From: Candidatus Nitrosopumilus sp. SW
GTDB taxonomy: Archaea > Thermoproteota > Nitrososphaeria > Nitrososphaerales > Nitrosopumilaceae
DNA length: 64,000 nt
NCBI RefSeq assembly: GCF_006740685.1
Contig: NZ_CP035425.1
Coordinates: 535,687-599,686 of the forward strand
Direction: 5' to 3'
Both the position numbers and the translations under genes were made by a program. The number at the start of each line of letters is the position of its first letter. The first letter of the stretch is position 1. The notes under the pieces are model-generated. The model saw only the letters and a list, made by a program, of their open reading frames with translations. It did not search any database and was not told the DNA's origin. Shown piece by piece: positions 1,397 through 52,516 of the stretch.

Positions 1397-1714
1397 ATGG
1401 CATTATTTGGAATATACGGAAGACATGAAATTGACGCTTGCCCAATCAACAACTCCAAAAATAGAGAGATGATGGTAAAAATTGGAAAACGAGATATGAA
1501 AGCAGTCTGCTCTAATTACAAAATCAACAAGATAATTGGCAGATTCCATTCTGCACTAGAACACACATTCTTGTGGATAGTTGATGCAGAAGATCCTCAT
1601 TTAATTCAAAAACTAGCAATGGAAGGAGGAGTTGCAAGCTTCAATGAAGTCAAAATCGTACCACTAATCGAATTTGAAAACGTGGTAGAAATGTTAGAAA
1701 AAATGGACAAATAG
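1397..1714 (+). CDS. Small alpha/beta protein, possibly DUF3303-like, unknown function
   Basis: A 105-residue protein starting MALFGIYGRHEIDACP. I chose the ATG at 1397 rather than an in-frame GTG at 1385 because GGAGGTG at 1381-1387 is a strong ribosome binding site at the right distance. The central FLWIVDAEDPHLIQKL followed by a VKIVPLIEFE strand resembles the ferredoxin-like fold of DUF3303 and related dimeric alpha/beta barrel proteins, but the similarity is loose. It has a cysteine at residue 14. It forms an operon with the 52-residue ORF and is probably under HxlR control. Confidence 0.7.
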   Translation: MALFGIYGRHEIDACPINNSKNREMMVKIGKRDMKAVCSNYKINKIIGRFHSALEHTFLWIVDAEDPHLIQKLAMEGGVASFNEVKIVPLIEFENVVEMLEKMDK

Positions 1715-29937: not shown

Positions 29938-30017
29938 GGTTTGACTCCAAATCTGCCAATAAAAAAATCTTTGTGGTTTACAAAAGATTTTATGGTCAAA
30001 ATACAGAATTTTCTTGG

Positions 30018-30111
30018 GTTCCAGTGGTGTAGACCGGTCAAGCATACTGCCCTTTCAAGGCAGTGATCCCGGGTTCAAAATCAATCGATGAAAATCCCGG
30101 CTGGAGCACCA
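30018..30111 (+). tRNA. tRNA-Glu (anticodon TTC) with a T-loop intron
   Basis: Acceptor GTTCCAG (30018-30024) pairs with CTGGAGC (30101-30107); discriminator A is at 30108 and CCA is encoded at 30109-30111. The anticodon stem CTGCC/GGCAG encloses CTTTCAA (anticodon TTC). The T stem CCGGG (30069-30073) / CCCGG (30096-30100) encloses 22 bases instead of 7. Removing 30080-30094 restores the standard T loop TTCAAAT. TTTTATGG about 28 bp upstream is a plausible TATA box. Confidence 0.93.
30080..30094 (+). other. Non-canonical 15-nt tRNA intron with bulge-helix-bulge
   Basis: The exon bases TTCA (30074-30077) pair with intron bases TGAA (30089-30092), giving a 4-bp central helix. It is flanked by 3-nt bulges AAA (30078-30080) and AAT (30093-30095), with TC/GA closing a small loop inside. 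Cutting each bulge after its second base excises exactly 15 nt and leaves TTCAAAT. This is the archaeal splicing endonuclease substrate at tRNA position 59/60. Confidence 0.85.
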
Positions 30112-30157
30112 AGATTTAATTAACAATGGGAAATTTTTTTTAATAGAGGCCAGCATC

Positions 30158-52425: not shown

Positions 52426-52499
52426 GGGTCTATGGCGCAGCCAGGTAGCGCACCGGACTTTTAATCCGGTTGTCAAGGGTCCGAATCCCTTTAGACCCG
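52426..52499 (+). tRNA. tRNA-Lys (anticodon TTT)
   Basis: Acceptor GGGTCTA (52426-52432) pairs with TAGACCC (52492-52498), discriminator G at 52499. Anticodon stem CCGGA/TCCGG encloses CTTTTAA (anticodon TTT). T loop TCCGAAT lies in the usual place. No intron or CCA. It is divergent from tRNA-Asp, about 97 bp apart. Confidence 0.95.
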
Positions 52500-52516
52500 C
52501 TACTTTTCTTTTTTCA

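Follow-up and report, generated by a model that had tools for sequence, protein, structure and literature searches.

What is a T loop of 22 nt doing in an otherwise regular tRNA gene, and how did the extra bases come to be there? The question is raised by a tRNA-Glu(UUC) gene in the window—the whole 64,000-nt stretch of the Candidatus Nitrosopumilus sp. SW genome that was analysed here.

The tRNA-Glu(UUC) gene

Read base by base, the gene has an acceptor stem of GTTCCAG (30018-30024) and CTGGAGC (30101-30107), a T stem of CCGGG (30069-30073) and CCCGG (30096-30100), A73 at 30108, and an encoded CCA at 30109-30111. All stems pair; the sole oddity is the T loop, which spans 30074-30095 and is 22 nt long. 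The gene and its probable signals are as follows.

30018..30111, + strand: tRNA-Glu(UUC) gene with encoded CCA (manual cloverleaf; ARAGORN on the spliced sequence)
30054..30056, + strand: anticodon TTC (UUC) (sequence reading; ARAGORN on the spliced form)
29988..29994, + strand: candidate TATA box TTTTATG, some 24-30 nt before the 5' end of the tRNA (predicted from sequence)
30134..30141, + strand: run of 8 T, candidate terminator (predicted from sequence)

The upstream sequence AAAAGATTTTATG is found again in ten relatives compared; at one locus, L161, the last bases differ. Neither ARAGORN nor the Rfam tRNA model reported a tRNA at 30018-30111. ARAGORN found nothing in the unspliced stretch, and called tRNA-Glu(ttc) once 30080-30094 were removed. 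An intron would explain why both tools overlook the gene, in a genome that would otherwise appear to be without a tRNA-Glu(UUC). The genome (1,499,620 bases in one contig) was covered by sequence searches and by reading of small stretches, and no second Glu(UUC) gene was found among its tRNA matches; the one other Glu gene among these matches has the anticodon CTC.

The insert and its bulge-helix-bulge

The extra bases and the adjoining exon can be arranged into the elements of a bulge-helix-bulge (BHB).

30080..30094, + strand: putative 15-nt intron at position 59/60 (presence or absence across 93 named loci)
30074..30077, + strand: central helix, exon side, TTCA (TCCA in L278, L280 and L281, with a matching intron change)
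30089..30092, + strand: central helix, intron side, TGAA (TGGA where the exon is TCCA)
30078..30080, + strand: 5' bulge AAA, predicted cut 30079/30080 (geometry; cut from the BHB rule)
30093..30095, + strand: 3' bulge AAT, predicted cut 30094/30095 (geometry; cut from the BHB rule)
30081..30088, + strand: inner hairpin of the intron, TC/GA with a 4-nt loop (CC/GG in L105; loop hypervariable)

The inner 2-bp helix joins TC at 30081-30082 to GA at 30087-30088. Among relatives, the third base of the 5' bulge is variable, and the second base of the 3' bulge is A or G. Much of this structure had been proposed in the original prediction, which described a tRNA-Glu(TTC) with a 22-base T loop, a 4-bp helix TTCA/TGAA between two 3-nt bulges, and a restored loop TTCAAAT after excision of 30080-30094; the base-by-base reading gives the same tRNA, helix and bulges at the same positions, and excision leaves TTCAAAT, in which form ARAGORN recognizes the gene. 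By sequence alone, removal of any register from 30077-30091 through 30080-30094 gives the identical product; it is the BHB rule, with its cut after the second bulge base, that would place the intron at 59/60 rather than up to three bases earlier.

The BHB geometry at the T loop exceeds chance, because it is rare in random sequence (416 of 200,000 random AT-rich 15-mers give it in the same register) and is conserved across dozens of genomes. The isolated T arm of the window slightly prefers another, non-BHB fold (-9.9 kcal/mol versus -8.1 kcal/mol for the BHB), and L281 folds as the BHB; the splicing enzyme may select the BHB form of the precursor. A self-splicing group I or group II intron was considered and rejected: the insert is only 15 nt long, and the window has no such Rfam match.

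Presence and absence in relatives

Named genomes were scanned with the tRNA body, using a pattern with most bases fixed up to TTCAAA and none after, so that close relatives were selected and neither intron state was favoured. The scan gave 93 loci, mostly labelled Nitrosopumilus, Nitrosarchaeum, Nitrosomarinus or unnamed thaumarchaea. The insert is exactly 15 nt long in 63 of the 93; it is absent from 30 of the 93, where the T loop is exactly TTCAAAT. Many genomes have the tRNA body unchanged or almost unchanged, and within the insert the 4-nt inner loop is hypervariable and the helix-forming bases are nearly fixed. With or without the insert, most loci with known flanks share a neighbourhood of pyrE, a TenA-like gene, tRNA-Glu, GGPP synthase and complex I genes; the TenA-like gene is more distant or missing in a few (L104, L106, L107, L044). 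Many genera of the family Nitrosopumilaceae carry an intron in tRNA-Glu(UUC)—15-22 nt long in the relatives compared—and it is absent in the three genomes read from genus g22 (L275-L277).

Two loci stand apart. A Nitrosarchaeum-like locus (L147) lies on a contig filed under a Chitinophagaceae bacterium and is likely mis-binned, and in Nitrosarchaeum CoA_2_bin.4 (L136) the T stem of tRNA-Glu runs directly into the GGPP synthase gene, probably by an assembly error.

Covariation of exon and intron

The central helix is invariant in the window's species. In other genera of the family (L278, L280, L281), exon TCCA is matched by intron TGGA, a compensatory change from U-A to C-G, and in L105 the inner helix has changed from TC/GA to CC/GG. 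An alignment of 13 sequences, its rows hand-picked to include variants, has standard pairs in 143 of 143 structure cells, four two-sided changes among them; none of 500 shuffles matched either the paired-cell or the two-sided-change value. Non-Glu tRNAs across the order also have introns in the T loop that contain TGAA and a hairpin to match, and in a set of 30 T-loop introns assembled by hand, 26 form the first two inner pairs (shuffles: mean 4.2, maximum 11).

Other families of the order have Glu tRNA introns at several sites (T loop, D arm), seen at L169 (G038) and at L173 and L174 (G053, G037), with further loci at L176, L180, L182, L186 and L188; the T-loop intron of L169 lies in the CTC isoacceptor of tRNA-Glu. 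A separate peculiarity concerns T-loop position 55, where nearly all elongator tRNAs, to our knowledge, have U: it is C (TCC, not TTC) in L275-L277, L278, L280 and L281, and likewise in the tRNA-Lys of the window (52426-52500).

Splicing machinery and proposed processing

The genome encodes two EndA paralogues of the splicing endonuclease (L073 and L074) and one gene for the RtcB ligase (L250). The nearest known structures to L073 are archaeal EndA chains (3p1z, 2cv8, 3ajv), and L073 retains HAPF and a later RK motif; L074, which lacks the histidine in its alignment, probably serves as the structural partner. Lys35 of L073 aligns gap-free with residue 44 of 3p1z, which we take to be the catalytic chain of Aeropyrum pernix. 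By this alignment, Lys35 appears to correspond to the lysine of the A. pernix Crenarchaea-specific loop, which has been tied to a broad substrate range (PMC6379350). An alpha2-beta2 splicing endonuclease has been assigned to Thaumarchaeota (PMC4090602).

On sequence evidence, the 15 bases are almost certainly a non-canonical BHB intron that interrupts the cell's tRNA-Glu(UUC) at 59/60 and would be spliced by EndA and RtcB. This reading is supported because the insert is precisely present or absent, exon and intron covary, the genome searches turned up no second Glu(UUC) gene, and the EndA and RtcB genes are there. An archaeal BHB intron at 59/60 was the central claim of the original prediction, and the same four points speak for it; the comparison across relatives that it had proposed gave the 63 and 30 loci above, and another intact tRNA-Glu(TTC) gene, which it had held would count against it, was looked for by searches of the genome and not found.

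We infer cleavage, ligation, the exact cut sites and the assembly of subunits as follows. In the precursor, exon TTCA would pair with intron TGAA between the T stem and the 2-bp inner hairpin; an endonuclease of catalytic plus structural subunits would cut each 3-nt bulge behind its second base (30079/30080 and 30094/30095); RtcB would ligate the exons into the loop TTCAAAT; and a 15-nt fragment would be set free. No function for the 15-nt intron was found in this analysis, and it behaves as an inherited, dispensable insertion.

History of the intron

Gain and loss were counted on locus trees, whose long branches leave the deep order unsure. The tree of four flanking proteins asks for at least six changes of intron state over 94 rows, four of them forced by starred branches; with added genera (105 rows) the flanking-protein tree gives eight changes, six forced, and there are six, three of them forced, on a smaller tree of 33 rows that was made with more care. 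We state the count as a range of 6-8, since the placement of L091/L103, L105 and L280 is unstable. With the 105-row tree rooted as it is, parsimony makes the root intron-present. The intron was probably inherited from the family ancestor and then lost exactly several times; transfer of intron-free alleles among lineages is possible.

One intron-free case is of a different sort. G237 (L271), by its flanking genes a very close relative of the window, has an intron-free, divergent Glu(UUC) at the same locus (1500-1580, minus strand); its T arm is like the one that the CTC gene has in L195, L196 and other relatives, and 18-20 nt lie between A73 and the conserved flank. Replacement or conversion is plausible here. 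The fuller scenario—a T-loop intron ancestral to Nitrosopumilaceae that is being erased exactly and time and again, at least once (in G237) through replacement by a tRNA with a CTC-like T arm—is offered tentatively, as we rate it somewhat below an even chance. If true, it would make Nitrosopumilaceae a natural laboratory for the loss of archaeal tRNA introns; the locus is well sampled, has several exact losses, and is useful for asking how and why such introns vanish. Slippage between the AAAATC repeats (30077-30082 and 30091-30096) was rejected as a loss route; it would delete 14 nt and leave an 8-nt loop, and none was seen.

Alternative explanations

The intron could also be kept for disrupting the 3' end of the tRNA gene as an integration target, so that loss exposes the gene to integration; Randau and Soll have reportedly proposed that tRNA introns break up this target for integrating elements. 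Short inserts directly behind the tRNA in intron-free L157, L161, L162 and L271, and the repeated AGCACCA in L157 and L162, fit such a role. We nevertheless consider it improbable: the cases are few and partly related, 10 of 39 thaumarchaeal elements sit in intron-containing tRNA genes (PMC6563490), and no element using the Glu(UUC) target was found in viral contigs, where the scans gave one irrelevant chance match, on a contig that has no tRNA gene, and where nothing matched the intron motif. The inserts of L157 and L162 are about 30-60 nt long and have the second AGCACCA at their end, followed by the usual CAAGATTTAA flank; they look like the footprint of an integrated element.

It is very unlikely that the insert stays unspliced and the mature tRNA functions with a 22-nt T loop. 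There are relatives that lack exactly the insert, the compensatory exon-intron changes maintain a splicing motif that would be superfluous to a mature loop, and splicing genes are present. Less credible still is that the gene is a tRNA pseudogene in decay and the insertion an accident. That would suit a gene that standard tRNA finders do not call, but every stem is paired, many genomes share the body with little or no change, and the complete single-contig genome yielded no other Glu(UUC) gene.

Place among known tRNA introns

As a BHB intron, the insert is of a kind, at a site and in a clade already known, because one review lists 59/60 among non-canonical intron sites and gives the lengths of archaeal tRNA introns as 11-129 nt, with medians mostly of 12-25 (PMC4090602), and thaumarchaeal non-canonical introns have a separate trained model in tRNAscan-SE 2.0, which counted 107 of them (PMC8450103). 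The BHB introns of the review share the 59/60 site, the 4-bp helix and the two 3-nt bulges, and the window intron falls within their length range; the review stresses Crenarchaeota and Nanoarchaeota, whereas the window intron is thaumarchaeal, without a difference in kind. The tRNAscan-SE introns agree with it in clade and class, and the text of that paper names neither this tRNA nor its history. The remark in the original prediction that non-canonical introns are known in thaumarchaea agrees with that count. Two others do not hold: introns at 59/60 in tRNA-Glu are not few in this clade, with many genera of the family carrying one, and 15 nt is not near the lower size limit, given the published range and medians (PMC4090602) and the 15-22 nt of Glu(UUC) relatives.

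Among the texts searched, no paper naming this tRNA-Glu intron was found, and the intron of relatives may already be in tRNA databases. What goes beyond the known is the intron's history, probably ancestral with several precise losses. Caldiarchaeum tRNA-Thr(GGU) likewise differs in intron presence among close archaeal lineages (PMC3293823); its authors tied that heterogeneity to element integration and gene splitting, whereas tRNA-Glu shows a clean difference in mostly stable synteny. Neither the overlooked gene nor the loss-rich locus overturns current knowledge.

Other candidate introns in the same genome

Two further tRNA genes outside the window are of interest for extra bases. The D arm of a tRNA-Arg(CCT) in the region G000:C1:882883 (L072), where ARAGORN found no gene, appears to be longer by about 18 nt, which probably form another non-canonical intron. 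In a tRNA-Val(CAC) at G000:C1:1304736-1304830 (L061) the variable region is longer by about 20 nt, and these, too, probably form a non-canonical intron.
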